Origin: a virus
Length of the DNA: 46,246 nt
IMG/VR virus record: IMGVR_UViG_3300023097_000007
Span: 1-46,246 of that record
Strand: one strand, 5' to 3'
Shown: in pieces, positions 6,409-36,137 of the stretch
How the letters are laid out: each line of letters opens with the position of its first letter
How positions within the stretch are numbered: the stretch's first letter is position 1
Made by a program: the position numbers and the translations under genes
The notes under the pieces: generated by a model
The model's input: only the letters and a program-made list of their open reading frames with translations
Databases searched by the model: none
Told to the model about the DNA's origin: nothing

Positions 6409-6416
6409 TATATTTG
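6409..6416 (+). promoter_or_regulatory. Putative Bacteroidota promoter (-7 box)
   Basis: TATATTTG fits the TAnnTTTG core used by Bacteroidota sigma-ABfr. No clear TTG element was seen upstream. It lies about 35 nt before a terminator-like hairpin and about 100 nt before terS, giving a short leader transcript. Confidence 0.5.
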
Positions 6417-6451
6417 TAACTCATGATGTTTATTGTTTTTAGATTTTAGGG

Positions 6452-6480
6452 AAGCCTTGTAGAAATATGAGGCTTTTTGC
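6452..6480 (+). terminator. Intrinsic terminator or attenuator before terS
   Basis: AAGCCT (6452-6457) and AGGCTT (6470-6475) pair around a 12-nt loop and are followed by a T run. It ends the early operon and lies between a promoter core (6409) and terS, so it may also attenuate that transcript. Confidence 0.65.
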
Positions 6481-6502
6481 TGTTTATTATTCAATGTTTT
6501 TA

Positions 6503-6510
6503 TACATTTG
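6503..6510 (+). promoter_or_regulatory. Putative promoter just before terS
   Basis: TATACATTTG (6501-6510) contains the TAnnTTTG core five bases before the ATG at 6515, which would give a leaderless message. The same ten bases recur at 7291-7300 before another gene. Confidence 0.5.
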
Positions 6511-6514
6511 CTTC

Positions 6515-7180
6515 ATGGCAAAGAACGTATTAACAACATTTGAAGAAGCATTTGCACAAAAATATGCAAGGAATCCAGATGCAACAGCAGCATTTAGGGC
6601 ATCAGGATATTCTTTTAAGAACATGAAGCCGGAAACGCAGTGGCAACAAGCTTCAAAGATTTTGAATCGTCCTAAGGTATCGGCAAGGATAAAAGAACTT
6701 CAGGACATATCAAAAAAGGTAGCTTCCAAAAAATTTGAAATTGATTCGGAAGAAATCATCCGTCACCTGGATATTTTAAGAAAAGCACGAATCGATGAAT
6801 ATGTTGAATACAAGACGGTTGAAATTCCTGTCACAAGACATACAACTGTTACAACTGGAACCGGAAAGAACAAAGTCAGTACAACAAATACTGAAACATT
6901 CATCAAGGAAGAAGTACAATTTGTATTCAAGCCGTGGGATGATCTCACAGATGAGCAAAAGATGGCTATAGAATCAGTTAAGCATGGGAGGTATGGTATA
7001 GAGCTTAAACTACATGGAAAGCACTGGTCTATAGATATGCTTAATAAGCACCTTGGATTATACGAAAAAGACAACCGCCAAAAGACTACTGAAATTAATA
7101 ATGAAATTGACATGTCTAAGATGTCAACTGAAACATTGCAGGCCATTGCTGAGGCTTATGTGAAGCCTGATATAATTTAA
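6515..7180 (+). CDS. terS: Terminase small subunit
   Basis: I place the start at ATG 6515 (221 aa) because the upstream ATG at 6467 would add 16 hydrophobic residues encoded by promoter and terminator sequence. The N-terminal half has the usual TerS layout: a phage terminase_2-like helix-turn-helix (Phe-Ala-Gln-Lys-Tyr, then Asn-Pro-Asp-Ala-Thr-Ala-Ala-Phe-Arg-Ala-Ser-Gly-Tyr, then Ala-Ser-Lys-Ile-Leu-Asn-Arg-Pro) followed by a helical segment with Val-Ser-Ala-Arg-Ile. The C-terminal part is helical with a Thr/Lys-rich insertion around residues 100-130. TerS binds packaging DNA and activates TerL. Five other genes separate it from terL. Confidence 0.85.
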   Translation: MAKNVLTTFEEAFAQKYARNPDATAAFRASGYSFKNMKPETQWQQASKILNRPKVSARIKELQDISKKVASKKFEIDSEEIIRHLDILRKARIDEYVEYKTVEIPVTRHTTVTTGTGKNKVSTTNTETFIKEEVQFVFKPWDDLTDEQKMAIESVKHGRYGIELKLHGKHWSIDMLNKHLGLYEKDNRQKTTEINNEIDMSKMSTETLQAIAEAYVKPDII

Positions 7181-7270
7181 GTAACTATATATCCATTCAA
7201 CCTAAATCCCAATAAAATCAATCTGTTTTAAATTATTTTACAAAATAAATTAAATATTTTGCTTTAGCAC

Positions 7271-7300
7271 TTGTTTATTACAAAATAAGTTATACATTTG
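7271..7300 (+). promoter_or_regulatory. Bacteroidota promoter
   Basis: TTG (7271-7273), 19 bases, then TACATTTG (7293-7300) match the TTG/TAnnTTTG consensus with good spacing. The start site would lie near 7306, just before the gene at 7334. Confidence 0.65.
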
Positions 7301-7333
7301 TATGTAGAAATGAAACAACAAAAATTAGAAACC

Positions 7334-7597
7334 ATGAGCAAATATTCAAAAACACCGAAAATGACACAAGTTGAAAAATTAGCTTTTTACAATGAAAACG
7401 GTTATTTTTTCGGAACAACTCCAAAAGCAACAATAAGCGGAAAGGGAGATTTCAAAGCGATGTTAGAAGTTGATGTTAAAGCTATCGCAGATGCGGAATA
7501 CAAACAAACTGTAAAATTGGTTGACGATAACATCGCCACTAACTGCGGCTATACAGAAGCCGAAATGAGTACAAAAAGACAAATGAAAAACCTTTAA
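7334..7597 (+). CDS. Hypothetical protein (87 aa)
   Basis: In-frame starts exist at 7298 (inside the promoter), 7310 and 7334. I favour 7334 because 7298 precedes the likely transcription start. The 87-residue protein is basic at the N-terminus and contains a Gly-Tyr-Phe-Phe-Gly-Thr-Thr segment and an acidic-to-alanine-rich helix (Val-Asp-Val-Lys-Ala-Ile-Ala-Asp-Ala-Glu). No family is recognised. It heads a group of four small genes with its own promoter between terS and the exonuclease, so it is likely an accessory gene. Confidence 0.6.
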   Translation: MSKYSKTPKMTQVEKLAFYNENGYFFGTTPKATISGKGDFKAMLEVDVKAIADAEYKQTVKLVDDNIATNCGYTEAEMSTKRQMKNL

Positions 7598-7608
7598 TAT
7601 TTAAATTT

Positions 7609-7764
7609 ATGAAAACGTACGTAAACACAGTAATTGTCAATGGAGTAAAGTATACCAACACCGTTGAAGCATCAAGCTACAAAGAGGCACTTAAAATCCA
7701 AAAAGAACGTAAACACAAGTCTAAAAACACATTTGAGGGGGCGTTAACATTAGCTTCTAAATAG
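7609..7764 (+). CDS. Hypothetical small basic protein (51 aa)
   Basis: A short frame from ATG 7609 to TAG 7762-7764, preceded by an A/T-rich stretch. The protein starts with a beta-hairpin-like segment (Val-Asn-Thr-Val-Ile-Val-Asn-Gly-Val) and continues with a Lys-rich helix (Lys-Ile-Gln-Lys-Glu-Arg-Lys-His-Lys). The stop overlaps the GTG start of the next gene by one base (TAGTG), supporting both. Confidence 0.55.
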   Translation: MKTYVNTVIVNGVKYTNTVEASSYKEALKIQKERKHKSKNTFEGALTLASK

Positions 7765-7955
7765 TGCCATTCATCATTTTAGACAAAAAATCTAACAAGC
7801 TTCGACTTTTCGGTTCTTTGCCTGTAATGGTTTCCGAAATTGATTTGGATAAATCAAAATTAGAGTATCATTTCAGTAGAAAAAAAGAATTGGAATTTGA
7901 AAATGAAAAATATAGAATCGCTAAAGTAGAATTAGAAAGAGGCGGCAAAAAATAG
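7764..7955 (+). CDS. Hypothetical small protein, GTG start (63 aa)
   Basis: The frame opens with GTG at 7764, overlapping the preceding TAG by one base, and runs 63 residues to a TAG stop. The N-terminus is hydrophobic and beta-like (Phe-Ile-Ile-Leu, then Leu-Arg-Leu-Phe-Gly) and the C-terminus basic and acidic mixed. Function is unknown. It ends 6 nt before the exonuclease start. Confidence 0.5.
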   Translation: MPFIILDKKSNKLRLFGSLPVMVSEIDLDKSKLEYHFSRKKELEFENEKYRIAKVELERGGKK

Positions 7956-7961
7956 CGGATT

Positions 7962-8513
7962 ATGACTAAAGGATTTATCGACATAGAAACAGGCGGATTC
8001 AGCATAGACAAAAATGGCGTCTGTGAAATTGCCATTGTTGCAGTTGATGCAGCAATGAATGTGGTGGATGAATATCATCACCTGATTAAACCGTATACCA
8101 GACCATGCGGAATTGAACTAGTTTCATATAAAGATGATGCTATGGCAATTAATGGTCTGACTGTTGAAAAGCTGATGGATGAAGGTGTACCGGTAGAATT
8201 TGCCATGGCTTCACTGCATGATTTTGTGGTCACACATAAGATTCAACAGTTAATCGGTCACAATATCGCCATATTTGACATGCCAAGGATCAATTATTTA
8301 ACCGGAAGATTTGGAAATGCAGAAACATTTGTTGGCATTCCGCTTGAATGCACACTTAAAATGGCAAGAAACCAGATGCCCAGTGCCGTTTCACATAAGC
8401 AGGAAGACCTACTGAAGGCGCTTGGCATCCCAAATCCTGCATCACACACAGCCCTAGGCGACTGTTATGGTAATATTTCCCTGTGGAAACATCTAACAGG
8501 ATGGAAACCGTAA
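7962..8513 (+). CDS. DnaQ-like DEDDh 3'-5' exonuclease
   Basis: All four DEDDh positions are visible in this 183-residue protein: Asp7 and Glu9 in the Asp-Ile-Glu-Thr-Gly-Gly motif, Asp106 in the segment Gly-His-Asn-Ile-Ala-Ile-Phe-Asp, and His162 and Asp167 in the segment Ser-His-Thr-Ala-Leu-Gly-Asp. This is the complete metal-binding set of RNase T/DnaQ-type 3'-5' exonucleases, so activity is expected. Its role could be DNA repair, trimming of ends, or nucleotide scavenging. It sits, unusually, between terS and terL. The G+C content seems higher than its AT-rich neighbours, so it may be a later arrival. Confidence 0.85.
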   Translation: MTKGFIDIETGGFSIDKNGVCEIAIVAVDAAMNVVDEYHHLIKPYTRPCGIELVSYKDDAMAINGLTVEKLMDEGVPVEFAMASLHDFVVTHKIQQLIGHNIAIFDMPRINYLTGRFGNAETFVGIPLECTLKMARNQMPSAVSHKQEDLLKALGIPNPASHTALGDCYGNISLWKHLTGWKP

Positions 8514-8548
8514 TTAACGAAAGAAGGTTATAATATAAAAACGACATC

Positions 8549-8830
8549 ATGAAATTCAATGCAAATCATCCTTATAGGATAATTAATTTATTATCCATTA
8601 ACGGGAACAGGTTTAAGATACAACAAAAAACAAGATTTTGGTTGTTTGGAAGATATGGTGATTGGAATGACATAACTATAAAAAAAAGCATCTCCAGGAA
8701 CTCCACTATCTATTTTAAAAGCAAGAAAGAAGTTATGGATTTCATTGATTTAAAGTTTAAAGAAAATGAATCAACAGTTGCTGAATTTGTTGTTTATGAC
8801 AGTAATCATGATATAAACCCAGATTGGTAA
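8549..8830 (+). CDS. Hypothetical protein (93 aa)
   Basis: The 93 residues include an aromatic core motif (Phe-Trp-Leu-Phe-Gly-Arg-Tyr-Gly-Asp-Trp) and alternating basic/hydrophobic segments. This resembles small single-domain proteins of the WYL-free beta type but no family fits. The stop is at 8828-8830 and terL begins at 8832, so they are almost certainly co-translated. Confidence 0.6.
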   Translation: MKFNANHPYRIINLLSINGNRFKIQQKTRFWLFGRYGDWNDITIKKSISRNSTIYFKSKKEVMDFIDLKFKENESTVAEFVVYDSNHDINPDW

Positions 8831-8831
8831 A

Positions 8832-10337
8832 ATGACTTCAACCGTGCCAATTCCAAAATATAACGAAGTAATTGCTGAATTATGCAAAAGGTCATTGTAC
8901 ATATTCGTAAAGGAATTTTGGAACACAATTATAAAAGATAAATTTGAAGATAATTGGCATATAGAGTATTTATGTGATGAAATACAACTTGTGTACGATA
9001 AACATGTTTTTAATAGATCGCCTCACATTAGTAATGAAAAATGGTACAATGGAATCATAGATGACATTCAGATAAATCTAATCGTAAATATTCCGCCTGG
9101 AACTTCAAAAAGCACCATAGCATCCAGAATGGCACCGGCTTGGATGTGGGCTATTGATGATACGAAAACCCTTATAAGTAATACCGTATCATCATCAAAC
9201 GCCACAGAATTCGCCCAAGCTTCTGTGGATATAATCAATTCAGAAAAATATAAAGCATATTTCCCACAGGTAGAGATTAGATATGGGGTTTCCGCAAAAA
9301 CATTTTATCAATCTAAAAATGGCGGTGTAAGATATTCATTTACAACAAAGGCCGGAGGAACAGGAAAGCACGCTCATATTATTTCAGACGACGATTCAAT
9401 GGACTACAAGATGGCAACCAGTCCGGCTGAGGCAAAGTTAGGAAGAGCTGGATTCAGAGCATTGCAAACGCGTAAAAAAGATAAAAGGAAAACCCCTTAC
9501 ATCGGAATATCTCAAAAATTATCAAACCTTGACAATTCAACAAATGCACTTAAAGTTTATAATGGATTTGTAAAACATATATGTCTCCCTGCAGAAAACA
9601 TATATAAAAATATCCAACCACCTGAACTTGAAAAATATTATGTGGATGGACTTTTAGATCCAAAAAGATTAAATAGGGAAGTTTTACATCAGCAAAAAAT
9701 GGGACTTACCGAAGATTCCAAGCCAATATCAGACATCGATTATAATATTCAATTTAATCAAGCTACTGAAACAGGGGAATCATTGCTTTATTCAAAATTA
9801 AACTTTGTTCCTGATTTGCCATCTAATAGAGACGGAGTAATTCGGTTTTCATTTACTGACGTTGCCGATACCGGCGCTGATTACTTTGCGACTATATTCT
9901 GCGAAATCAATCAATCTAAGATTTATGTATATGATATAATATATACTCAGGAGCCATCTAATAATACATCGGGGAAAATAAAAGCAAAAGTAGAAATGCA
10001 CGGCAGCATGATAAATAAAATAGAAACAAATAATCAAGGATCTGTTTTTGTAACTTTAATGCAACAAATGGGAGTATATGTTGACGGATATTATAGTTCA
10101 GGGAATAAGCAACAAAGAATATCTGCATGGGCGCAGTTTTCATCTTTTGTTTATTTCTTAACGCCGATGTCTAAACCGTATCACACAAACGAATATAATC
10201 AAGCGATAAAACATATCCAGGCTTATCCAAAAACAGGAACTGCAGATGATGGGCATGATGATATTGAAGATGCATTTACTGAAATGCTTAGATATTTTTA
10301 CACTAATTATAGATCATTATTTACAATGATAAATTAG
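8832..10337 (+). CDS. terL: Terminase large subunit
   Basis: The 501-residue protein carries both TerL domains. The ATPase has a Walker A-like loop Pro-Pro-Gly-Thr-Ser-Lys-Ser-Thr (residues 88-95) and a Walker B region Ile-Ile-Ser-Asp-Asp-Asp-Ser (183-189). The RNase H-like nuclease has the Phe-Thr-Asp-Val-Ala-Asp motif (D343/D346), a mid-strand Glu398 candidate and the terminal Gly-His-Asp-Asp-Ile-Glu-Asp-Ala motif (D476/D477). TerL drives DNA into the prohead and cuts it. The order terS, accessory genes, terL, portal is conventional. A strong terminator lies between it and the portal gene. Confidence 0.95.
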   Translation: MTSTVPIPKYNEVIAELCKRSLYIFVKEFWNTIIKDKFEDNWHIEYLCDEIQLVYDKHVFNRSPHISNEKWYNGIIDDIQINLIVNIPPGTSKSTIASRMAPAWMWAIDDTKTLISNTVSSSNATEFAQASVDIINSEKYKAYFPQVEIRYGVSAKTFYQSKNGGVRYSFTTKAGGTGKHAHIISDDDSMDYKMATSPAEAKLGRAGFRALQTRKKDKRKTPYIGISQKLSNLDNSTNALKVYNGFVKHICLPAENIYKNIQPPELEKYYVDGLLDPKRLNREVLHQQKMGLTEDSKPISDIDYNIQFNQATETGESLLYSKLNFVPDLPSNRDGVIRFSFTDVADTGADYFATIFCEINQSKIYVYDIIYTQEPSNNTSGKIKAKVEMHGSMINKIETNNQGSVFVTLMQQMGVYVDGYYSSGNKQQRISAWAQFSSFVYFLTPMSKPYHTNEYNQAIKHIQAYPKTGTADDGHDDIEDAFTEMLRYFYTNYRSLFTMIN

Positions 10338-10361
10338 GAAAATAAAAATAAATAGTCAAAA

Positions 10362-10393
10362 TTGCGAAACTTATAAAAAAAAACATATTTTTG
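10362..10393 (+). promoter_or_regulatory. Bacteroidota promoter before the head operon
   Basis: TTG (10362-10364), 21 bases, then TATTTTTG (10386-10393) fit the TTG/TAnnTTTG consensus. The expected start near 10400 begins a structured leader that ends in a strong terminator just before the portal gene. Confidence 0.6.
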
Positions 10394-10399
10394 TATTGA

Positions 10400-10507
10400 A
10401 TTATACGTGTGAAGATGCACGTAACTGAATTTTTTAAGATGCTGCACCTAAAAAATATTAACATGGCTCTTTCCGACATAATTTTCGGAGAGAGCCATTT
10501 ATTTTTA
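10400..10507 (+). ncRNA. Structured leader RNA before the portal operon
   Basis: Between the promoter and the portal start lie three stems: ACGTG/CACGT (10405-10409/10418-10422), ATTTTTTA/TAAAAAAT (10429-10436/10449-10456), and the terminator below. The transcript would be about 108 nt and ends 6 nt before the portal ATG. This is the layout of an attenuator or a short sRNA. An 8-9 nt loop-to-leader pairing, as in the leaders at 30.9 and 32.1 kb, is not seen here; only a short AATTA/TAATT pairing is possible. Confidence 0.5.
10463..10507 (+). terminator. Strong intrinsic terminator between terL and portal
   Basis: ATGGCTCTTTCCG (10463-10475) pairs over 13 positions (one G-T) with CGGAGAGAGCCAT (10486-10498) around a 10-nt loop, followed by a T-rich run. 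The portal ATG is at 10514, leaving no room for a promoter, so portal expression needs readthrough of this hairpin or antitermination. Confidence 0.85.
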
Positions 10508-10513
10508 ATGTAA

Positions 10514-11701
10514 ATGAGTTTTATAGGTGATACAATAAGATATTTTACTCCGGAAAAAAGGAGGGCATATATTGCAGGGCAATCCGTGAAAATGGAGATC
10601 GACAGTTTCGACATAGGATTTCATAATGCGACAAAATACGGAATAGAAGAAAAATTTGTAAAACTGTCAAAACAAACATTCATTTTAAATGACGTTATAG
10701 GAAAAATTTGTAAGACATTCTCAAAAGCAGAATTTTTATCTGATAATGAAAATGATATGCTTATCGAAAAGCTTAATAAGCCAAATAAGAAACAGTCACG
10801 TCAAGAATTTTTAAAAGAGTTTGCGTATTATATAAAAGCATCTGGATGGGTAGTTGTTTGGAAACGGTATGAGTCGGTAGGTAATTTCAAGACGATGGAA
10901 TTAATATCTTTAAATCCGGATTATACAGAATTCGGTAAAGATGGAAATATCAATTCTGAATATGAAAATGAGTGCCATGCAATTGATAAAGAGGATTGCA
11001 TTGTATTTTATGACTCAACTAGACAAACTAATGGTAAAGGGGATTCTGTAATATTGCCGCTGAAAAGCCAGATATACAACATAATGACTTCTCAGGTAGC
11101 AAAATCTATTCAAATAGATAATTCAGGAACCACGATAGTTTCGCCAAAAGTAAGTGCGCATTCTAATTCAGTTGACGAGGGACTCAATTCGATGATACAG
11201 CAAGAGATTCCTGGGCTTAAGACGCAGAAGCAGGAAATGGAGGAAAAGCTTGGGTCAAGAGGGCTTTATAATAGGATAATAGTAGCATCAAAAGGGTTAG
11301 ATGCCGTAAATTTATCTGCACAGCTTAACGAGGTTAATTTTGATGATAAAGTTGAAGCAGATAAATTGGCAGTGTTTGGGGCATTTAATTTCCCCCCAGA
11401 ACTGAGTCCTTACGGTAAGGATCCTAAATATGAGAATCTGGAACTTGCCGAACTATCATTGGTAGAATTAGAAATATTCCCGCTAGCAGAAAGCTTGGTG
11501 ATTACATTAAATCAGGAATTTTCGAAAGAAGGAAATATAAGAGTAAGTTTTAATCATCTGAATTGTATGAGCGTAGTTGAAAGCAGGATTCAAAAGACAA
11601 ATACTGAAACTATAAATCAATATACGACTATTCTAGAAAATGGTGGAATCACGGTTGATCAATATAAAAGAATACTGAAAGACAAAAAAATAATACCATG
11701 A
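10514..11701 (+). CDS. Portal protein (HK97-type)
   Basis: The 395-residue protein lies between terL and the prohead protease, the expected place for a portal, and has the expected size. Visible features include the central wing/stem pattern with Leu-Lys-Ser-Gln-Ile-Tyr-Asn-Ile, a Gly-Ser-Arg-Gly-Leu-Tyr-Asn-Arg segment, the Phe-Asn-Phe-Pro-Pro-Glu-Leu motif (the family's Gly-Ile/Phe-Pro-Pro element), and a C-terminal Ile-Gln-Lys-Thr-Asn-Thr-Glu-Thr-Ile-Asn segment with Thr-Val-Asp-Gln-Tyr. The portal ring is the DNA entry channel and connects to the neck proteins. Its stop overlaps the next ATG (ATGA). Confidence 0.88.
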   Translation: MSFIGDTIRYFTPEKRRAYIAGQSVKMEIDSFDIGFHNATKYGIEEKFVKLSKQTFILNDVIGKICKTFSKAEFLSDNENDMLIEKLNKPNKKQSRQEFLKEFAYYIKASGWVVVWKRYESVGNFKTMELISLNPDYTEFGKDGNINSEYENECHAIDKEDCIVFYDSTRQTNGKGDSVILPLKSQIYNIMTSQVAKSIQIDNSGTTIVSPKVSAHSNSVDEGLNSMIQQEIPGLKTQKQEMEEKLGSRGLYNRIIVASKGLDAVNLSAQLNEVNFDDKVEADKLAVFGAFNFPPELSPYGKDPKYENLELAELSLVELEIFPLAESLVITLNQEFSKEGNIRVSFNHLNCMSVVESRIQKTNTETINQYTTILENGGITVDQYKRILKDKKIIP

Positions 11702-11802
11702 AAAAATCTCAAGAAAAAATAGACAAGGATCAAAAAGAACAATTGAAAAAAGATCGACAAGAGAAGATTGACAAAGACAAAATTATAAAAAAAAATGATT
11801 AA
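11698..11802 (+). CDS. Tiny lysine-rich protein (34 aa)
   Basis: A 34-residue frame starts in the portal's stop overlap (ATGA at 11698) and ends inside the protease gene (TAA at 11800-11802; the next ATG is at 11795). The product is nearly all Lys, Asp, Glu, Gln and Ile, a highly charged helix. The double overlap argues that it is translated; it could instead be a spacer of no function. No family is recognised. Confidence 0.4.
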   Translation: MKKSQEKIDKDQKEQLKKDRQEKIDKDKIIKKND

Positions 11803-12613
11803 AGTTTTAGAATTTCCGAACAAAGAATTTAATTCAAAAGACGAATTATTTAAGGCTTTGATTGATAACAAATCCAAGATTATTTCTTTGAAAAAATCAA
11901 TGGAAAAAAAAGCCGATTCAATCAGTTTTTATTATTCAGATGATCATACCGAAAAAGGTATAGTTACTAAAGCAGAATCCGGAAATGATACAGATCCAAG
12001 CGAATTAAACGTAAAAGTTGTAATAAACACAACAAATCTGCTAGATAGCCATGGAGATGTTCATATTGATGGAATATGGAAAAAAACGCTATCGGACAAT
12101 TCTACTTTTCTGCATCTGCAGGAACATGATAAAAGCTTTGACAAAGTTATTGCGGATGATGCAAAAGGATACGTAAAATCAATGGACTGGACAAAACTAG
12201 GACTCAATTTTGAAGGGAAAACTCAAGCATTAATATTCGACAGTGTTATATTAAAAAAACGGAATGAATTTATGCTTAACCAGTATCAAAACAAATGGGT
12301 TAAAAACCATTCAGTTGGGATGCGATATGTGCAAATGCACCTTGCTATAAATTCAGAAGCCGAATGGAACAAAGAGGAAAAAGAAGTCTGGGATAAATAT
12401 TATCCGGTTATTGCAAATAAAGAAGCCGCAGATCAAAAAGGATATTTCTGGGCAGTAACAGAAGCAAAAATAATAGAGGGTTCGGCAGTCGTATTTGGAA
12501 GCAATTACGCAACTCCAACCCTGGAAGACAATAAAGAGGAGCCGGCAGAGGCCACTCCTAAAAATGAGCCGTCAAAAGACACTCTAACAGAAGTAAAAAG
12601 GAGAAGAAACTAA
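11795..12613 (+). CDS. Prohead protease (HK97 type, U35-like)
   Basis: The 272-residue protein has the layout of an HK97-like prohead serine protease: a beta-rich centre with Leu-Leu-Asp-Ser-His-Gly-Asp-Val-His, a Leu-Gln-Glu-His-Asp motif (candidate catalytic His111), and a His-Ser-Val-Gly-Met motif (candidate catalytic Ser173), then Glu-Gly-Ser-Ala-Val-Val-Phe-Gly-Ser before an acidic/basic C-terminal tail. It is expected to clip the capsid N-terminal delta domain and itself. It lies directly before the major capsid gene. The assigned Ser/His pair is inferred by analogy. Confidence 0.85.
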   Translation: MIKVLEFPNKEFNSKDELFKALIDNKSKIISLKKSMEKKADSISFYYSDDHTEKGIVTKAESGNDTDPSELNVKVVINTTNLLDSHGDVHIDGIWKKTLSDNSTFLHLQEHDKSFDKVIADDAKGYVKSMDWTKLGLNFEGKTQALIFDSVILKKRNEFMLNQYQNKWVKNHSVGMRYVQMHLAINSEAEWNKEEKEVWDKYYPVIANKEAADQKGYFWAVTEAKIIEGSAVVFGSNYATPTLEDNKEEPAEATPKNEPSKDTLTEVKRRRN

Positions 12614-12631
12614 CTATTAAAAAAATCAAAA

Positions 12632-25483: not shown

Positions 25484-25490
25484 AGAGATT

Positions 25491-25619
25491 ATAAATATTA
25501 TTTTTTCGTATATAAACAGGTAGAAACTACCCTATAAATATCATTTTTTCGTATATAAATGGGTAGAAACTACCCTATAAATATTATTTTTTCGCATATA
25601 AACAGGTAGAAACTACCCA
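25491..25619. repeat. Three tandem 43-bp repeats with a central palindrome
   Basis: Units start at 25491, 25534 and 25577. Each holds GGTAGAAACTACC (5-bp arms, 3-nt loop), followed in units 1 and 2 by a TATAAATA stretch. The units differ at only a few bases. They lie between the start of the minus-strand membrane gene and a divergent plus-strand gene at 25843. They are most like operator repeats or iterons; no spacer structure or cas gene supports CRISPR. The rest of the 25620-25842 gap is AT-rich and I see only the promoter below. Confidence 0.85.
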
Positions 25620-25824
25620 TAAGATAAACTTTTAATTCAATCAGGTTCAACGGAAACTCATATCTTTAAATAGGACTACAGCCAACATGGGAGGTGGCAA
25701 AAATACAAATATGATAAGTTTTAGAATTATCGCTGTAAACAACTTATACTTGCCAACAGTATTTATACCATAGAATCGATGGTTTAAAATACCAAAAGAA
25801 TGATGTAAATGTATAGAAAAATAT

Positions 25825-25832
25825 TATATTTG
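25825..25832 (+). promoter_or_regulatory. Putative promoter of the distal tail operon
   Basis: TATATTTG matches the TAnnTTTG core 10 bases before the ATG at 25843, giving an almost leaderless message. No clear TTG was seen upstream. Confidence 0.5.
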
Positions 25833-30354: not shown

Positions 30355-30379
30355 ATATTAACCAATTAATTTAAATATT

Positions 30380-30856
30380 ATGCCATTAACAGCATTTTTA
30401 TCTACACCATCAAGAGCTGACATGTACGGCTACGATGGGCAACAGGACACGCAACAACTCCAATGTTATAACGAGTTAGAACAATGGAGATTTGATGCAA
30501 ATAGTACGGCATCAGATAATGGATTGACCGTAATTAAGCCTACAAGTATTTTATTGACAGATCCTGGGAGATGGGTTTTTCAATATAAAATGCAAAGCAA
30601 AAAACAAGAGACGTTTTCAGGTATATCGAACAGCTCAGGAAATTTTACTGTTACTTTTGCATCCGCATACCCATCGTCACCGGACATACAGCCAGCAATA
30701 ATTAATCCAACGGATACTCAAACTATAAGAATTACAGCAATATCTACAACCGGATTTACTGTTAATGTAAGAAATAGAGCCGATGTTATCGGACTACTTC
30801 CAACTTATTCTAATGTAAATGGAGCATCAGTAAGTGTTTTAGTTACACAAAGATAA
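30380..30856 (+). CDS. Tail fibre tip / receptor-binding domain protein (158 aa)
   Basis: The protein has an N-terminal short segment with Gln-Gln-Asp-Thr-Gln-Gln-Leu, a Gly-Arg-Trp-Val-Phe motif and a C-terminal domain of regular short strands rich in Thr, Ile, Asn and Asp (Thr-Val-Thr-Phe, Thr-Ile-Arg-Ile-Thr-Ala). It looks like a small H-type-lectin-like or fibre-tip domain, and it follows the long fibre gene. The assignment is from shape and position. Confidence 0.5.
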   Translation: MPLTAFLSTPSRADMYGYDGQQDTQQLQCYNELEQWRFDANSTASDNGLTVIKPTSILLTDPGRWVFQYKMQSKKQETFSGISNSSGNFTVTFASAYPSSPDIQPAIINPTDTQTIRITAISTTGFTVNVRNRADVIGLLPTYSNVNGASVSVLVTQR

Positions 30857-30887
30857 TTGACAGAATTTTACAATAATTGTATTTTCA

Positions 30888-30918
30888 TTTGCATATTAAA
30901 ATATTTTCATTAAATTTG
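30888..30918 (+). promoter_or_regulatory. Bacteroidota promoter of the KilA-N leader
   Basis: TTTG (30888-30891), 19 bases, then TAAATTTG (30911-30918), the best match to the TTG/TAnnTTTG consensus in the window. Transcription should start near 30925. Confidence 0.75.
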
Positions 30919-30924
30919 CTCTAT

Positions 30925-31047
30925 CAATTACGGGCGTGAGAATCCTAATTGAGTTTAGGATTTTCCAAAAGCCCGTAACCGGATCAAAAAGAAAGACATA
31001 ATCTCCTTAACCGAATCTCACGCCCGGTTAAGGAGTTTTCTTTTTAG
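30925..31047 (+). ncRNA. Attenuator-like leader RNA upstream of the KilA-N gene
   Basis: The RNA can fold in two ways. Fold A: stem TTACGGGC/GCCCGTAA (30928-30935/30971-30978) enclosing AATCCTAA/TTAGGATT (30941-30948/30955-30962), then the terminator CTCCTTAACCG/CGGTTAAGGAG. In fold B, GGCGTGAGA (30933-30941) pairs with TCTCACGCC (31016-31024) in the terminator loop. A third option pairs TAACCGG (30976-30982) with CCGGTTA (31024-31030), which would break the terminator. The three are partly exclusive, as expected for a switch. The 31146 gene lies beyond it. All pairings are perfect and were counted base by base. Confidence 0.65.
31003..31047 (+). terminator. Intrinsic terminator ending the 30.9 kb leader
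   Basis: CTCCTTAACCG (31003-31013) pairs with CGGTTAAGGAG (31025-31035) over 11 bp, loop 31014-31024, followed by TTTTCTTTTTAG. The loop is complementary to 30933-30941. Confidence 0.85.
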
Positions 31048-31145
31048 ATAAACTATCTCAAGAAAATTTGTTTAAACAGTATTCAGGCAAAAAAATCATC
31101 TTACAATTGCAAAAAATCAGTGATAATTTACTAAATGTTTAAAAT

Positions 31146-31808
31146 ATGATAACATCAGTTGTTATGGTTCGTAAAATGGGTAGCTTTGATGTGCTACAAC
31201 GGACAAAAGACGGTTACTTTGACGCTAACGCATTATTGTTAGCATGGAACGTAAGACCTCAAAATGGGCGTAGACGTATGGATGAATTTTTAAAGGCCAA
31301 AAAAACCGTTGAGTTTATGGAAGCTTTAAATGAGGAAATTCAGTCAGAATCCAATGGTGAAAAATCACCTCAGGCTTTTTACGAAAAAAAGTCTCGCCTA
31401 ACATCAAAAGGAAATACAAAAGGAGAAATGTGGATGCACCCATATTTGTTTATTGACTTTGCGATGTGGGTAAATCCTAAATACAAAATATCAGTTATTA
31501 AATTCGTTTATGATGAATTGATAAAAAGTAGAACTGATGCAGGAGATAATTATAAAACGCTTTCTGCGTCCATCGTAAAATTGAAAGGATATTCGTTTCA
31601 GGAAGTCGCTATTGCCTTACAATGGATTGTATACGGAACTACCGGTAAAAATTTACGACAAACCGCCTCTGAGGAACAATTACGAGAATTGAACGATATT
31701 CAAACTAAATTGGCTTTTGCAATCGACATGGGTTACATCGGAACTTACGACAATCTTCTGAGTGAAATGCGCAGAATTTATAATAGAAAATATAAATCAC
31801 TTAAATAA
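31146..31808 (+). CDS. KilA-N domain protein
   Basis: The 220-residue protein has a KilA-N-type layout: Leu-Gln-Arg-Thr-Lys-Asp-Gly-Tyr-Phe-Asp-Ala-Asn near residue 20, a helical stretch, then Met-His-Pro-Tyr-Leu-Phe-Ile-Asp-Phe-Ala-Met-Trp-Val-Asn-Pro (near 97) and a helix ending in Asp-Glu-Leu-Ile-Lys-Ser-Arg. KilA-N domains are DNA-binding domains common in phages and large DNA viruses. The C-terminal part is helical. It starts about 100 nt after the leader terminator, and no other promoter core was seen in between, so its expression likely depends on readthrough. Confidence 0.8.
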   Translation: MITSVVMVRKMGSFDVLQRTKDGYFDANALLLAWNVRPQNGRRRMDEFLKAKKTVEFMEALNEEIQSESNGEKSPQAFYEKKSRLTSKGNTKGEMWMHPYLFIDFAMWVNPKYKISVIKFVYDELIKSRTDAGDNYKTLSASIVKLKGYSFQEVAIALQWIVYGTTGKNLRQTASEEQLRELNDIQTKLAFAIDMGYIGTYDNLLSEMRRIYNRKYKSLK

Positions 31809-31814
31809 GAAATC

Positions 31815-31961
31815 ATGAAAACAAAAATTGAAATCATGCCGCAATTCGCTTTAGCAATTGTGTTCGCGAAAAAGGAGTGTCACATTGGATTATTTTTCAT
31901 TTTAGTTACGATTACATATCCGAAAAGAATTAAGCCGGTAATTGCTATTAAATGGGTTTGA
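31815..31961 (+). CDS. Possible small hydrophobic protein (48 aa)
   Basis: A short frame directly after the KilA-N stop (ATG 31815, TGA 31959-31961). It has a hydrophobic stretch (Ile-Gly-Leu-Phe-Phe-Ile-Leu-Val-Thr-Ile) and a basic end, which would fit a single-helix membrane peptide. It may also be a chance frame. The A-rich start region is acceptable. Confidence 0.35.
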   Translation: MKTKIEIMPQFALAIVFAKKECHIGLFFILVTITYPKRIKPVIAIKWV

Positions 31962-32030
31962 AAAATAGTCTTTGACGATGTTTTAATTACTGAGCAATAA
32001 TATAAGTAAAACACATTTTTATCACATTTA

Positions 32031-32062
32031 AAAAGCACAATGTAAAAGTTGTGCTTTTTTTA
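32031..32062 (+). terminator. Intrinsic terminator after the KilA-N operon
   Basis: AAAAGCACAA (32031-32040) and TTGTGCTTTT (32049-32058) pair around 8 nt and continue into a T run. It separates the KilA-N transcript from the next promoter, which overlaps its T run. Confidence 0.8.
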
Positions 32063-32063
32063 T

Positions 32064-32071
32064 TATATTTG
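32064..32071 (+). promoter_or_regulatory. Putative promoter of the second attenuator-like leader
   Basis: TATATTTG matches TAnnTTTG. A TTG at the usual distance is not clear. The expected start is near 32078. Confidence 0.5.
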
Positions 32072-32077
32072 TATCGT

Positions 32078-32180
32078 TGTTGTGCGGCAACATAAAAGAA
32101 CATAGTGAGTTAATTAATTTAATTTCACCGAGAAACCCCTTATAAAGCCGCACACTTTTTGAGGGGTTTTCTCATTTTAA
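32078..32180 (+). ncRNA. Attenuator-like leader RNA before the 32.2 kb operon
   Basis: TGTGCGGC (32081-32088), near the inferred 5' end, is perfectly complementary to GCCGCACA (32147-32154) in the loop of the terminator at 32130-32173. A middle hairpin (GTGA/TCAC arms at 32105-32128) lies between. The ATG at 32192 follows the terminator by only about 18 nt, so the gene cannot have a separate promoter between them. Together with the similar leader at 30.9-31.05 kb it forms a two-member RNA family in this genome. Confidence 0.6.
32130..32180 (+). terminator. Intrinsic terminator/attenuator just before the gene at 32192
   Basis: GAGAAACCCCT (32130-32140) pairs with AGGGGTTTTCTC (32162-32173; one bulged T) around a 21-nt loop that carries GCCGCACA. 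A T-rich run follows. Confidence 0.75.
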
Positions 32181-32191
32181 ATAAACTACAT

Positions 32192-32545
32192 ATGGACAAT
32201 GAAACATTTGAATCTAAAATGATGTCAGAATTCGCAGAAGATGAAAAAAAATATTATGATAAAATTCAAAGAAGAAACGAGAGATTTTTAAATGCTATTC
32301 TAAGAAGAATTTCCATATATAAATTCAATCAGCTTAAAGACTTTATATTTGAAAGCGGAAATGTAGAGATAACTGGCATTGTAAGAAGGCATAAAGTTTC
32401 AGGAGATAAACAATCAGAGTCACCTTTTTGGTTCAAGCATATATTTATTACACAAAGAACTGGATATGTGTGCGATGATTACTCAGGAACAATATTTATT
32501 CCAATCACAGAAAAACACTTTTTAAAATTTGAATATAGTTGTTAA
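32192..32545 (+). CDS. Hypothetical protein (117 aa)
   Basis: The start is set at ATG 32192, because an earlier in-frame TTG (32159) lies inside the terminator. The protein is charged and helical in its first half (Glu-Asp-Glu-Lys-Lys-Tyr-Tyr-Asp-Lys) and mixed afterwards, with one Cys in Tyr-Val-Cys-Asp-Asp-Tyr. No family is recognised. It heads a run of small genes under the attenuator-like leader. Confidence 0.6.
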   Translation: MDNETFESKMMSEFAEDEKKYYDKIQRRNERFLNAILRRISIYKFNQLKDFIFESGNVEITGIVRRHKVSGDKQSESPFWFKHIFITQRTGYVCDDYSGTIFIPITEKHFLKFEYSC

Positions 32546-32566
32546 AACATTTTTAATTATGAAATT

Positions 32567-32833
32567 ATGAAAGAAAAAGAGCAAGAGACATTTTTTTTTA
32601 CTAAATATATCCTTGATTTAGTTGCATTCGGAGGATTATCTGATGAAACTTACGAAATAAATAAGATGTTTGCATTAATGGATGTTGACGGAAAAATAGA
32701 ATTACTTACTAATTTAAAAAAAGAAATGTTTTCAAGAAGTAAAAATATTCTCAACGAAGAAATAAAAAAATTACAGACAATAAAAAAAGAAATAGAAAGA
32801 ATGAATAAATATATATTCCCGTTATTAAAATAG
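32567..32833 (+). CDS. Hypothetical helical protein (88 aa)
   Basis: The 88 residues contain a hydrophobic first third (Phe-Phe-Phe-Thr-Lys-Tyr-Ile-Leu) and a Lys-rich coiled helical second half. No family is recognised. It follows the previous gene after 21 nt and ends 6 nt before the next ATG. Confidence 0.55.
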   Translation: MKEKEQETFFFTKYILDLVAFGGLSDETYEINKMFALMDVDGKIELLTNLKKEMFSRSKNILNEEIKKLQTIKKEIERMNKYIFPLLK

Positions 32834-32839
32834 TCATTT

Positions 32840-33214
32840 ATGAAAACCTACAAAATTATTACGGAAGGAATTACAAACATTGTAACCTGCGAAACTTTAA
32901 TTGTCGAACCAAACGGACGTACTTTTTTCAAAACCGTAGATAAAATTGTCCATATTGCACCACAATTTGCATCAATAAATAATGTATGTTTTGAAAATAA
33001 AATATTGAAGGAATTAGAAAATTTAAGTGACGACATTAAATCGGATTATTATAAAATATTAAACCGAGTTGAAGAGTTTGAAGAAGCCGAAAAAGGCACA
33101 TCGTATTCTGAGATACATTTGGCATGGAGATTTAAACTCGGTGCAATAAACGAAATTTCAGCTAAATTGAGAAAACTTATTGAAAATAAAACTGCTGAAT
33201 TACTAAACCAATAA
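32840..33214 (+). CDS. Hypothetical protein (124 aa)
   Basis: The first 50 residues form strands (Tyr-Lys-Ile-Ile-Thr-Glu, Leu-Ile-Val-Glu-Pro-Asn-Gly) and the rest a charged helical region (Lys-Glu-Leu-Glu-Asn-Leu-Ser-Asp-Asp-Ile). No family is recognised. It lies in a tight array of small genes and ends 2 nt before the next ATG. Confidence 0.6.
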   Translation: MKTYKIITEGITNIVTCETLIVEPNGRTFFKTVDKIVHIAPQFASINNVCFENKILKELENLSDDIKSDYYKILNRVEEFEEAEKGTSYSEIHLAWRFKLGAINEISAKLRKLIENKTAELLNQ

Positions 33215-33216
33215 AT

Positions 33217-33366
33217 ATGAAATACAACAGAAAACATACTCCGGACAAAATCACAAATCATTTAGCTTGGTTAATTGCAAACTGTTTGGCCTGCTTTATT
33301 TTAGGATGCGCTTTACTTGTGAAGATTTATTTTGTATTACAGGTAATTGATAAAAGAAATATTTAA
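33217..33366 (+). CDS. Small single-helix membrane protein (49 aa)
   Basis: ATG at 33217, TAA at 33364-33366. A basic N-terminus (Lys-Tyr-Asn-Arg-Lys-His) is followed by a hydrophobic stretch of about 22 residues with three Cys (Trp-Leu-Ile-Ala-Asn-Cys-Leu-Ala-Cys-Phe-Ile-Leu-Gly-Cys), then a Lys-Arg end. The N-in topology predicted by the positive-inside rule suits an inner membrane peptide. Function is unknown. Confidence 0.6.
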   Translation: MKYNRKHTPDKITNHLAWLIANCLACFILGCALLVKIYFVLQVIDKRNI

Positions 33367-33408
33367 TAAATAAAACCTCGATCGTATAGGTAAAATCTAA
33401 TTTAAAGT

Positions 33409-33537
33409 ATGGAAAATACAATAGGTTTTTGGAGACATAAATGTTCCATGCAAAGGATATCTGGTCACAATTATTGCTTTATGAGCGTTGAAAATAAAAA
33501 AAATTATGAATGGGTAATTATTAAGAAAATAGATTAA
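33409..33537 (+). CDS. Small hypothetical protein (42 aa)
   Basis: ATG 33409 to TAA 33535-33537. The product has His, Cys, Trp and Lys scattered through 42 residues (Trp-Arg-His-Lys-Cys, His-Asn-Tyr-Cys-Phe). No clear domain. Only the A-rich start region and its position between co-directional genes support it. Confidence 0.35.
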   Translation: MENTIGFWRHKCSMQRISGHNYCFMSVENKKNYEWVIIKKID

Positions 33538-33588
33538 ATCCAGGACAGCCGACACCCTGATAAAGTAGGCAAACAAAAAACTAATATT

Positions 33589-33867
33589 ATGAATTGGAAA
33601 GAACTAAAAGATTTTTGTAACAATTTACCTGACTCTGAATTATACAAAAAGGTAATGCTGTGGCGTGAAGAAGACGCCATAACTGATGTATCAGCCTTCC
33701 AATTAGAGGAAGACCAATATATCAGTGAATATTCAGAAGATGGATGTTTTTCTGAATCAGTAGCAAATGAATTTATAAAAAATGACCCAGAAGATTACCC
33801 TAATGGAATACTGGATTTTGAAAAAGTATATGACAAAGGACACCCTGTTTTACATGAAAATTTCTAA
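33589..33867 (+). CDS. Small acidic early protein (92 aa)
   Basis: The protein opens with a Met-Asn-Trp-Lys-Glu-Leu-Lys-Asp-Phe-Cys-Asn motif. I have seen this opening (Trp-Glu-Leu-Lys-Glu-Phe-Cys) in many small Bacteroidota-phage proteins. It continues with an aromatic strand Val-Met-Leu-Trp, then an acidic body. Function is unknown. Short upstream spacers at 33541-33577 and 33873-33912 share the bases AGCCGA and AGTAGGCAAACA. Confidence 0.6.
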   Translation: MNWKELKDFCNNLPDSELYKKVMLWREEDAITDVSAFQLEEDQYISEYSEDGCFSESVANEFIKNDPEDYPNGILDFEKVYDKGHPVLHENF

Positions 33868-33923
33868 TCAATAAGCGCGGAAGCCGAAAAGCGAACGAGT
33901 AGGCAAACATCAAACACATTTTT

Positions 33924-34254
33924 ATGAAAAAAGTATTTTTTATTGCAATGGCGGTTTTTGGAATTGCAATTTATTCATGCTCAGACGATCAAATTAAAGT
34001 AAAACCGACCGAAATACGAACATCTTACAGACTTGGTCACGAATGAGTGGACGCAATGCAATTCAGGTGATACGCAATATGGGTGATGTAAAATCTATTC
34101 GGACGGAAATGGAAACTTTATGAAATCAACTTTTTCATTGATGCCGTTTCCAATACATTGGCCTCAAATGTCGTATGGTTCTGAAACTATAGACGATCAA
34201 AAATGGTACTGGGAAACCCAATGGGTAACGAGTTGCACGCCGGCATCAAATTAA
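33924..34254 (+). pseudogene. Broken lipoprotein gene
   Basis: The start encodes Met-Lys-Lys, a hydrophobic run and Ile-Tyr-Ser-Cys-Ser-Asp-Asp, a lipobox with a typical Bacteroidota signal peptide, but the frame closes after about 40 codons. A shift of one base near 34020 opens a second frame, which continues with Asn-Glu-Trp-Thr-Gln-Cys-Asn-Ser-Gly-Asp and then, after one in-frame TGA (34084-34086), reads 55 further residues (Gly-Asn-Gly-Asn-Phe, Trp-Tyr-Trp-Glu-Thr-Gln-Trp) to TAA at 34252. A secreted ~110-residue lipoprotein broken by one frameshift and one stop fits best; two sequencing errors are an alternative. Confidence 0.6.
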
Positions 34255-34270
34255 AAATATATAAACAGAT

Positions 34271-34303
34271 AAAACCCGACATTAATGTGTCGGGTTTTTT
34301 ATT
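34271..34303 (+). terminator. Intrinsic terminator after the broken lipoprotein gene
   Basis: AAAACCCGAC (34271-34280) and GTCGGGTTTT (34289-34298) pair over 10 bp around 8 nt, followed by T. It closes the 32.2-34.25 kb small-gene array and precedes the lysis genes. Confidence 0.85.
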
Positions 34304-34347
34304 TAAAATAATTTACTACATTTATACCAATTAAAAATAAAGCAATT

Positions 34348-34590
34348 ATGACAAATAGAAAAGTAGAGTTTGCAACGAAATCAGCTTTGGCAAGCAGAAC
34401 GCCTGAATTTTGGAAAAATGTGTTTAAAGGAACGGTAGTCGTCACCTCGGTGGCTACATTTATTTTGGCCGCAGACCCAACTATCGATCCAAACACCGTT
34501 ATCAGAATAGGGGTATATATGAAAGGGTTGGATATGCTTGTATTGGGATTTTCCAGATTATTCGGAGTAACCGTGGAAGGTATTAAATAA
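34348..34590 (+). CDS. Small membrane protein, holin-like candidate (80 aa)
   Basis: The 80 residues have a basic start, the segment Arg-Thr-Pro-Glu-Phe-Trp-Lys-Asn-Val, a hydrophobic helix (Gly-Thr-Val-Val-Val-Thr-Ser-Val-Ala-Thr-Phe-Ile-Leu), and a second hydrophobic stretch near the end (Met-Leu-Val-Leu-Gly-Phe). This matches the size and lay-out of small holin-like or tail-associated membrane proteins at the head of flavobacterial-phage lysis cassettes. It is the first gene after a terminator and leads towards the endolysin. Confidence 0.55.
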   Translation: MTNRKVEFATKSALASRTPEFWKNVFKGTVVVTSVATFILAADPTIDPNTVIRIGVYMKGLDMLVLGFSRLFGVTVEGIK

Positions 34591-34607
34591 TCTTAAATTA
34601 AAATAAA

Positions 34608-34733
34608 ATGAATGAAAAAGTAACAATAGAAAGAGAAGCAACAGAAGAAGAACAAAGGGCAATTCAGAAAGCCAGGGAAATATTGGATGCCGCCGGATTG
34701 GAACTTATCGGCACCCGACCGAAAAGAAGATAA
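34608..34733 (+). CDS. Small charged protein in the lysis region (41 aa)
   Basis: ATG 34608, TAA 34731-34733. The product is a short Glu/Arg-rich amphipathic helix (Glu-Glu-Gln-Arg-Ala-Ile-Gln-Lys-Ala) ending in Arg-Pro-Lys-Arg-Arg. The stop overlaps the next start (TAATG at 34731-34735), which supports translation. The function is unknown. Confidence 0.5.
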   Translation: MNEKVTIEREATEEEQRAIQKAREILDAAGLELIGTRPKRR

Positions 34734-35056
34734 TGAAACGCTTATTATACATAGCGACCGTAATAGTATTAGTTGATTATTTATTTTGGGAGCAAATGGA
34801 AATATTTTTAGGATTTCAGGTTTTCGAAATACTAAAGGCTTTATTTTTATGGATGCTATGTATTTTTATTTTCATGCAAAACAGGAAATCATTCATCTGC
34901 TTTTTTCTATTTTGCGCATCGCTCAACGATTTAGTAGACGAAGTAACAGGGAATTGGGATAAATTGTATCTTAGCGAAGCATTTTTGATATTAATATTGC
35001 CTTTACTTTGGGCGCTCAAAACACAAATAAATGTTAGAAAAGATACAAGGGACTGA
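34733..35056 (+). CDS. Membrane protein with three segments (107 aa)
   Basis: Hydrophobic segments at about residues 4-22, 31-58 and 80-95 (Leu-Leu-Tyr-Ile-Ala-Thr-Val-Ile-Val-Leu-Val; Leu-Phe-Leu-Trp-Met-Leu-Cys-Ile-Phe; Leu-Ile-Leu-Ile-Leu-Pro-Leu-Leu) with a basic C-terminus. It is coupled to the preceding gene (TAATG) and overlaps the next gene by 26 nt. Position in the lysis cassette suggests a holin or accessory membrane lysis protein. Confidence 0.6.
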   Translation: MKRLLYIATVIVLVDYLFWEQMEIFLGFQVFEILKALFLWMLCIFIFMQNRKSFICFFLFCASLNDLVDEVTGNWDKLYLSEAFLILILPLLWALKTQINVRKDTRD

Positions 35057-35387
35057 TTGGTTGCCGACCTTTATTAAAATATTTATTCCAGCTTTCGTAG
35101 GTGTTGGTATAAAAATAGCAATCGAAATGAAAAAAGACAAAACAAAAGTATCGCTGATAAACATAGTACTTTCTATGTTCATAGGAATAAGTGGAGCGTG
35201 GCTTTTGTCAGGAATGATAGAGGATATTTGTGCATTGCATTACGTTCCTGCAGTTATAGCCTTAGTAGCAATTATTTCAGATAAAATAGGGGAATTTATA
35301 ATTTACAAATTAAATATCGACGTTTTTCTTACGGCTTTAGTGAACAATGCATTTATATTTGTAAGCAATACATTCAAAAAACAGTAA
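35031..35387 (+). CDS. Holin-like membrane protein (118 aa)
   Basis: Three hydrophobic stretches (Ile-Phe-Ile-Pro-Ala-Phe-Val-Gly-Val-Gly; Ile-Val-Leu-Ser-Met-Phe-Ile-Gly-Ile-Ser-Gly-Ala-Trp-Leu-Leu; Ile-Ala-Leu-Val-Ala-Ile-Ile-Ser) flank charged loops, which suits a class I holin or LydA-like holin. It starts inside the upstream gene and ends 1 nt before the endolysin. A holin-endolysin pair is the natural reading. Confidence 0.65.
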   Translation: MLEKIQGTDWLPTFIKIFIPAFVGVGIKIAIEMKKDKTKVSLINIVLSMFIGISGAWLLSGMIEDICALHYVPAVIALVAIISDKIGEFIIYKLNIDVFLTALVNNAFIFVSNTFKKQ

Positions 35388-35388
35388 A

Positions 35389-35886
35389 ATGACACCTGAA
35401 CTATTTGTTAAAACATATCTTCCGGAAGCAAAAAAAGTGGAAGCCAAAACCGGGTTTCATTATTTGATTCCTTTAACTCAATCTGCTCTTGAAGGTGATT
35501 GGGGTCGAAAAATGCCAGGTAATAATCCTTTCGGAATAAAAGATACTGACGGCGTAAACGGGAATGAGCAACTGATAACTACAACTGAATACCTGAGTAC
35601 GTCCAAAGCGAAATTTCCTGTGATTTTAAAAATAGTTAAAGCGGGGAAATTATTCAAATACACCGTAAAGGACTGGTTCAGAAAATACCCAAGTATTGAA
35701 AAAGCATTTGAAGACCATGTAAACTTTTTCATGACAAATAAAAGATATTCAGAAGCAGTAAAGTTCAAAAATAATCCAGAAAGATTCTTTGAAGAAATAT
35801 CAAAAGCAAAATATGCCACAGCTCCGGATTATGGAACTACTTTGAAACTCGTAATGAAATCAGTAATCAAAAGACTTCCAAAATAA
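35389..35886 (+). CDS. Endolysin, GH73-like N-acetylglucosaminidase
   Basis: The 165-residue protein shows the GH73 layout: an opening Ala-Lys-Lys-Val-Glu, then Pro-Leu-Thr-Gln-Ser-Ala-Leu-Glu-Gly-Asp-Trp-Gly (candidate catalytic Glu35), Pro-Gly-Asn-Asn-Pro-Phe-Gly-Ile-Lys, a central Phe-Arg-Lys-Tyr-Pro-Ser, then Asn-Lys-Arg-Tyr-Ser and a final Lys-Tyr-Ala-Thr-Ala-Pro-Asp-Tyr. It would hydrolyse glycan bonds of peptidoglycan. There is no signal peptide, so it needs the holin-like proteins upstream. A terminator follows at 35923. Confidence 0.88.
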   Translation: MTPELFVKTYLPEAKKVEAKTGFHYLIPLTQSALEGDWGRKMPGNNPFGIKDTDGVNGNEQLITTTEYLSTSKAKFPVILKIVKAGKLFKYTVKDWFRKYPSIEKAFEDHVNFFMTNKRYSEAVKFKNNPERFFEEISKAKYATAPDYGTTLKLVMKSVIKRLPK

Positions 35887-35922
35887 CACGACCGTTCCGC
35901 AAGTCGATTAGTACGGTTCTAC

Positions 35923-35959
35923 AAAAAGCCTGTCCTGCCAAAACAGAGACGGGTTTTTT
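35923..35959 (+). terminator. Intrinsic terminator after the endolysin
   Basis: AAAAAGCCTGTC (35923-35934) pairs with GACGGGTTTTTT (35948-35959) over 12 positions, two of them G-T/T-G. It ends the lysis transcript. A small hairpin (ACCGT/ACGGT) lies just upstream. Confidence 0.8.
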
Positions 35960-35976
35960 ATTTCATAATAAAATCA

Positions 35977-35984
35977 TATATTTG
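35977..35984 (+). promoter_or_regulatory. Promoter of a short leader or small RNA
   Basis: TATATTTG with the surrounding AATAAAATCATATATTTGC (35967-35985), a 19-base sequence repeated exactly at 36095-36113 and 43905-43923. Transcription should start near 35991. Confidence 0.6.
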
Positions 35985-35990
35985 CCCCAC

Positions 35991-36060
35991 TTACTGCCTA
36001 ACAGTAAATTGTTTTTTTGTTCTTAAAACCCGATTGTCACGAGTCGGGTTTTATTTTTTA
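35991..36060 (+). ncRNA. Short leader or small RNA with two hairpins
   Basis: TTACTG/CAGTAA (35991-35996/36002-36007) and a terminator AAAACCCGA/TCGGGTTTT (36025-36033/36044-36052) with a T-rich run give a ~70-nt RNA. A second promoter copy follows within 45 nt, so the RNA could end before the 36135 gene and be a separate small transcript. No loop-to-leader complement was found here. Confidence 0.5.
36025..36060 (+). terminator. Intrinsic terminator of the short RNA
   Basis: AAAACCCGA and TCGGGTTTT pair over 9 bp around 10 nt and are followed by ATTTTTTA. Confidence 0.75.
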
Positions 36061-36137
36061 CAAAAAAATTAAACAAAAACCACATTTCGCATTAAATAAA
36101 ATCATATATTTGCGTTAAACAAAAATCATATATCGTG
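36057..36137 (+). repeat. 81-bp promoter repeat, copy 1
   Basis: These 81 bases recur at 43867-43947 with two mismatches (36081 and 36126). Each copy holds a TATATTTG promoter core and the GTG start of the gene that follows, so two operons share one control sequence. Recombination between the copies could delete or duplicate the 7.8 kb between them. Confidence 0.9.
36105..36112 (+). promoter_or_regulatory. Promoter in the 81-bp repeat, before the gene at 36135
   Basis: TATATTTG (TAnnTTTG) with a start near 36119 and a GTG start at 36135. The third copy of the shared 19-base core is at 35967-35985. Confidence 0.6.

Follow-up and report, generated by a model that had tools for sequence, protein, structure and literature searches.

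Promoter-to-terminator leaders in the window

When a phage places a promoter, a short leader and a terminator in front of several of its genes, are these genes under common control, and what would recognise the leaders? We addressed this question in a 46,246-base virus record, analysed over its full length and referred to here as the window, whose promoters are of the Bacteroidota type and to which the Flavobacterium phages tant8-1 and FL-1 are distantly alike. Using a pattern scan and folding, we located TAnnTTTG promoters exactly at 6409, 10386, 30911, 32064 and 35977, each with a strong terminator-like hairpin at most about 125 nt behind it. A scan of both strands yielded seven strong promoter-to-terminator leaders (these five, one at 43915 and one on the minus strand), whereas 200 block-wise dinucleotide shuffles contained 0.175 on average and never more than 2; the layout thus occurs well above chance.

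An earlier note on this DNA had described the five sites as one repeated architecture. The promoter and the terminator are indeed present at all five, but the uniformity breaks down in detail: only the leaders at 30911 and 32064 additionally carry a 5′ segment (X) that is complementary to the terminator loop (X′), over 11 and 8 nt, respectively, while those at 6409, 10386 and 35977 resemble neither each other nor this pair. A strong terminator and an X/X′ match of at least 7 nt were never combined in any of the 200 shuffles of the window. We defined a member of the architecture as a promoter with X near the 5′ end and X′ in a terminator loop within approximately 170 nt, the match spanning at least 7 nt with at least 3 G/C. 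By this definition 30911 and 32064 are members and the other three sites are not.

The three remaining sites, all on the plus strand, differ in how they relate to the gene that follows. The terS leader (6409–6484) consists of a promoter, a short leader and a terminator, with a longest X/X′ match of 4 nt; the listed terS ORF start at 6467 falls inside the hairpin, and the likely start is the ATG at 6516. The portal leader (10386–10508) contains a promoter, two 5′ hairpins and a strong terminator, its X/X′ match is AT-rich and 6 nt long, and the portal ATG at 10514 is located 12 nt past the end of the terminator. Both look like ordinary leaders. We found no relative of TerL among viral contigs, and a single distant phage match to the portal protein among the relatives searched. 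The third site (35977–36056) comprises a promoter, a small hairpin and a terminator, with an X/X′ match of 3 nt. It is probably not the leader of the gene at 36135, since that gene has its own promoter at 36105, within an 84-bp block that is duplicated (36057–36140 and 43867–43950, 96% identity) and fronts two different genes (36135 and 43945). For the 35977 element, a short transcript standing by itself is more likely than a leader of this gene.

Two leaders complementary to their own terminator loops

Both members, which we call elements A and B, lie on the plus strand. The element A promoter (30911–30918, −7 box TAAATTTG) was identified by the pattern scan. Sequence and folding predict a 5′ hairpin at 30928–30978, formed by TTACGGGC (30928–30935) with GCCCGTAA (30971–30978) and enclosing an inner hairpin, AATCCTAA...TTTAGGATT. 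Segment X (CGGGCGTGAGA, 30931–30941) is the exact complement of segment X′ (TCTCACGCCCG, 31016–31026), which lies in the loop and the first two stem pairs of a predicted intrinsic terminator (CTCCTTAACCG / AATCTCACGCC loop / CGGTTAAGGAG, followed by a T-rich tract; 31003–31045), giving an 11-nt perfect X:X′ complement. The gene behind element A (31146–31808) encodes a KilA-N domain (Pfam PF04383); KilA-N genes of this type are rare in chromosomes, with one found in 398 genomes.

In element B, the promoter (32064–32071, −7 box TATATTTG, pattern scan) is followed by segment X (TGTGCGGC, 32081–32088), which overlaps the loop of a 5′ hairpin (GTTG/CAAC, 32076–32092). Segment X′ (GCCGCACA, 32147–32154) is located in the loop of a predicted intrinsic terminator (GAGAAACCCC ... 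GGGGTTTTCTC, 32130–32173), and X and X′ form an 8-nt perfect complement. The ATG of the next gene (32192–32545) is positioned 18 nt past the terminator stem; it encodes a 117-aa protein with no assigned function, for which we found no relative among viral contigs. The cores of X and X′ of both elements have no further match anywhere in the window, including a third copy of X at a start codon, and neither leader contains a minus-strand TAnnTTTG promoter.

Recurrence of the architecture in related phages

Since a first loose repeat detector returned mostly noise, we used a promoter-anchored detector with permutation controls instead. In a scan of 1.6 Mb of related Bacteroidota phage DNA it identified 24 members with a score of at least 32, as compared to none in three shuffled copies. 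The X sequence is different in each of the 24. X is located close behind the promoter in most members and often within a hairpin loop, and X′ is consistently found in the terminator loop. In an unbiased test on 1.14 Mb of related phage DNA, we took each promoter followed by a terminator no more than 170 nt away (177 leaders) and asked whether the leader's first 45 nt match its terminator loop over 7 nt or more with 4 or more G/C. In 18 of the 177 the leader matched its own loop. Swapping the loops between leaders 100 times gave 0.4 such matches on average and never more than 2, and the same-sense control gave 0.

For element A, presence in relatives, a check proposed in the earlier note, was borne out: roughly 13–15 of 63 KilA-N loci carry the X/X′ layout. 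Upstream of these KilA-N relatives the layout is the same and the letters are different, with pairs such as GTCAGAGC/GCTCTGAC, GTGGAACG/CGTTCCAC, GTGAGAGC/GCTCTCAC, CTTCCAG/CTGGAAG and ACTTCACTCC/GGAGTGAAGT, among others. The leaders L002 (GTCAGAGC/GCTCTGAC) and L004 (GTGAGAGC/GCTCTCAC) differ by a single, compensated C/G change. The isolated Flavobacterium phage FL-1 (KY421186) accounts for two of the 24 members, at 3691 and 18920, and a Bacteroides LoVEphage provides a weaker case (7 nt) upstream of Rha-KilA genes. Because KilA-N was the main search query, the association of members with particular genes is biased.

In 14 of the 24 members the start codon of an ORF of at least 50 aa lies no more than 60 nt, and mostly 7–24 nt, past the terminator, as compared to 26% at random positions. 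This spacing leaves no room for a separate promoter, suggesting that in these 14 members the gene can be reached only by read-through. In about 10 of the 24, the terminator is not immediately followed by an ORF start. A match of at least 6 nt to the start codon was found in none of the 22 compact members. Three candidates were dropped as false positives: L006 and L039, which come from the same contig group and contain a different, nested hairpin, and L040, which is a simple hairpin.

The members that lack a directly following ORF show a 300–450-nt non-coding, highly folded stretch before the next ORF, which in several cases is a KilA-N or antirepressor gene. We observed such stretches in the LoVEphage (locus L085, minus strand, just after 29809), in L057, in L093 (3800–4200) and in L075, L095, L100, L103, L109 and L131. 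In the LoVEphage and L057 the stretch contains a tRNA-like piece (GTAGGTA...GGGGTTCGATTCCC...TGCCTAC). The related phage contig L100 carries a permuted tmRNA gene at 5383–5730 (Rfam RF04321, ARAGORN).

A three-site version in Riemerella phages

Searching at the DNA level with the leader region of FL-1, we came upon Riemerella phages (RAP44, CRP5, CRP12 and PT03), whose leaders precede a small gene together with an antirepressor gene (ANT/KilAC domain with Rha or AntA). In these leaders X is located at the 5′ end and measures 15 nt, X′ within the terminator hairpin complements it perfectly, and the small gene has its start codon overlapped by a third X copy. We read five specificities (TGTTCAAACAAGAGC, TGTTAATCCAAGTGC, TGTTAAACCATCGTG, TGTACAATCAAGGGC and TGTTCAAAACCCGTG), and CRP5, RAP44, PT03 and CRP12 each possess two leaders of different specificity (both copies examined). 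An exact 21-nt pattern taken from a Riemerella leader had no match in viral contigs.

The Riemerella leaders allowed us to assess covariation directly. Among seven distinct leaders, X and X′ are complementary in 77 of 77 paired cells, and so are X′ and the start-codon site (77 of 77). Seven of the 11 pairs have changed on both sides and none on one side only, a result as high as this was obtained in 0 of 500 shuffles, and sliding the alignment by 1–3 columns lowered the pairing to 18–49%. The first residues of the small protein, as read from the start codons, vary along with the RNA (MLIQ, MFKQ, MYNQ, MLNH and MFKT), which points to selection acting on the RNA. Most comparisons gave no support for a faster evolution of the three sites relative to the remainder of the Riemerella leader.

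A model for self-complementary leader RNAs and its alternatives

Since what is conserved is a complementarity that is oriented with the transcript and ends in a terminator, the acting agent is most likely RNA. We put at about an even balance of belief the reading that A (30911–31045) and B (32064–32173) are self-complementary leader RNAs of one architecture, each with a specificity private to it, and that they control the following gene through attenuation or antisense pairing. Transcription would begin just upstream of X, and most transcripts would probably end at the terminator, releasing an RNA of approximately 100 nt, with the gene behind reached by read-through only. X would be transcribed first and X′ only shortly ahead of the terminator's 3′ arm, and pairing between them could therefore interfere with the hairpin or shape it. 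From the loop, X′ would pair with the X of its own RNA, and potentially with that of a second copy, and this pairing would determine the outcome for the downstream gene. With X′ bound by X, over 8–12 bp in a loop that is often equally short, the terminator hairpin would be strained or delayed; when X is occupied by a second leader RNA, or by the 5′ hairpin itself, the terminator would work. Any leader RNA would pair perfectly with further copies of the same leader but with none of the other leaders. Because occupancy of X would set termination, as in antisense-controlled attenuators, copies of the short RNA could regulate their own operon with private specificity. In the Riemerella version, where X′ also complements the antirepressor operon's start codon, the target would be translation; given the absence of the start-codon copy of X from the window and from the compact members, this mechanism may not carry over to the window.

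More tentatively, and short of an even balance, we suggest that Bacteroidota phages possess an undescribed class of self-targeting leader RNAs. Here the terminator loop would be antisense to the 5′ end of the transcript itself, and in part of the phages also to a start codon, providing each antirepressor, KilA-N or accessory gene with a private RNA lock and thereby an RNA-based immunity specificity.

A purely intramolecular switch, in which a loop-loop contact between X and X′ within one transcript tunes termination or RNA stability (in response to polymerase speed, a chaperone or a nuclease) with no action in trans, is a rival that we regard as rather unlikely. Proximity does favour pairing within one RNA, and neither X nor X′ has another site in the window. 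However, fully paired loops of 7–11 nt, as seen at 30911 and in L075 and L114, hardly fit an intact terminator, and such a switch leaves unexplained both the different letters of each copy and the start-codon copy of the Riemerella phages. The leaders could instead be free-standing small RNAs with targets elsewhere, in mRNAs of the host or in other mRNAs of the phage, and the gene next to them would be incidental. That a promoter and a terminator delimit a transcript of about 100 nt fits this picture, as do the 10 of 24 members without an immediately adjacent ORF; we nevertheless consider it improbable, as most members have a start codon directly behind the terminator and the matching target in the Riemerella phages is precisely the adjacent start codon.

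It was also suggested in the earlier note that a single antiterminator, host factor or phage protein governs all five leaders. While five promoter-terminator leaders do exceed chance, the sites have no common sequence or structure, three of the five have no X/X′, one is probably not the leader of its gene, and where X/X′ is present its letters are private to the copy. The difference of X/X′ in every copy (24 of 24 members, and two versions per Riemerella phage) favours a private, self-directed specificity over a shared protein factor, making a single regulator very improbable. The further suggestion of a family of small RNAs comes close in two cases, 30911 and 32064, which represent an RNA architecture that recurs in related phages, and fails for the three sites that lack the feature. 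Finally, X and X′ could be inverted operator repeats in the DNA, bound by a protein and looped. DNA looping would suit inverted repeats downstream of a promoter as well, but this reading is barely credible: the letters are wholly different between copies in the same genome and between close relatives while the complementarity stays exact, and the segments keep to RNA loops, X′ consistently to that of the terminator and X often to that of a hairpin.

Relation to known RNA systems

To our knowledge, control of phage antirepressors by short loop-loop antisense RNAs is known mainly from the enterobacterial phages P1/P7 and P22. In plasmid attenuators of the pT181/pIP501 kind a 5′ segment pairs with an arm of the terminator stem, and there is also a separate countertranscript. 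The leaders described here share with them a nascent 5′ segment that would compete in terminator formation and a private specificity, but differ in that the pairing is with the terminator loop rather than the stem and in that no opposite-strand promoter was found within the 30911 and 32064 leaders. HK022 put and lambda nut are likewise phage RNAs near a promoter that affect termination downstream; they rely on RNA polymerase or a protein recognising a conserved sequence, whereas no conserved sequence was found in the present leaders.

The c4 RNA of P1/P7 is a short RNA heading an antirepressor operon that blocks a translation start through complementary segments in RNA loops, with immunity specificity set by sequence differences (PMC12197685). 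The Riemerella version follows the same logic as c4 (RF01695), its leader encoding a complement of the antirepressor-operon start region, which the window and the compact members lack. In contrast to c4, the leaders here carry the antisense segment as the loop of an intrinsic terminator with its partner at the 5′ end of the transcript, the host phylum is another, and the window copies have no start-codon target. The c4 covariance model gave no cmscan match in the window (also at E up to 1) or at the member loci. The small sar RNA of P22 restricts the synthesis of antirepressor by pairing at the start region of ant (PMC12197685). For the leaders described here, X′ and its target are located on one strand and in one transcript. 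The sar RNA, by comparison, is transcribed from the opposite strand.

None of the Rfam families matches the window elements or the members that were tested, and the part of the literature on skipping-rope, kissing-loop and antirepressor RNAs in Bacteroidota that we covered contained no description of them. Both sequence-based searches and searches for nested RNA structures would miss the architecture, because neither its letters nor nested pairs are conserved. The architecture may therefore work like the leaders of P1 c4, P22 sar or pT181 without being a member of any of these groups, and a new class is a possibility. If so, antisense RNA control of antirepressors would have a widespread counterpart of different anatomy in Bacteroidota phages, the fast-changing and perfectly paired X/X′ sets would offer orthogonal RNA regulators that are ready to use, and immunity groups would be predictable directly from sequence.

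Other features of the window

A cmscan search of the window against Rfam returned only the DUF805b motif at 33874 above the gathering threshold, and no family at the five sites. The motif (33874–33905) is located just before a small lipoprotein-like ORF, and its GTAGGCAAAC end recurs at 33565–33574 before the ORF at 33589, as if the two had a 5′ UTR or translation element in common. In the intergenic region before the promoter at 25825 we observed three 43-bp tandem repeats (25490–25622) built of GGTAGAAACTACCC hairpin units. The ORF at 41675–43861 encodes a 728-aa protein in which a helicase is fused to an N6/N4 DNA methylase domain.
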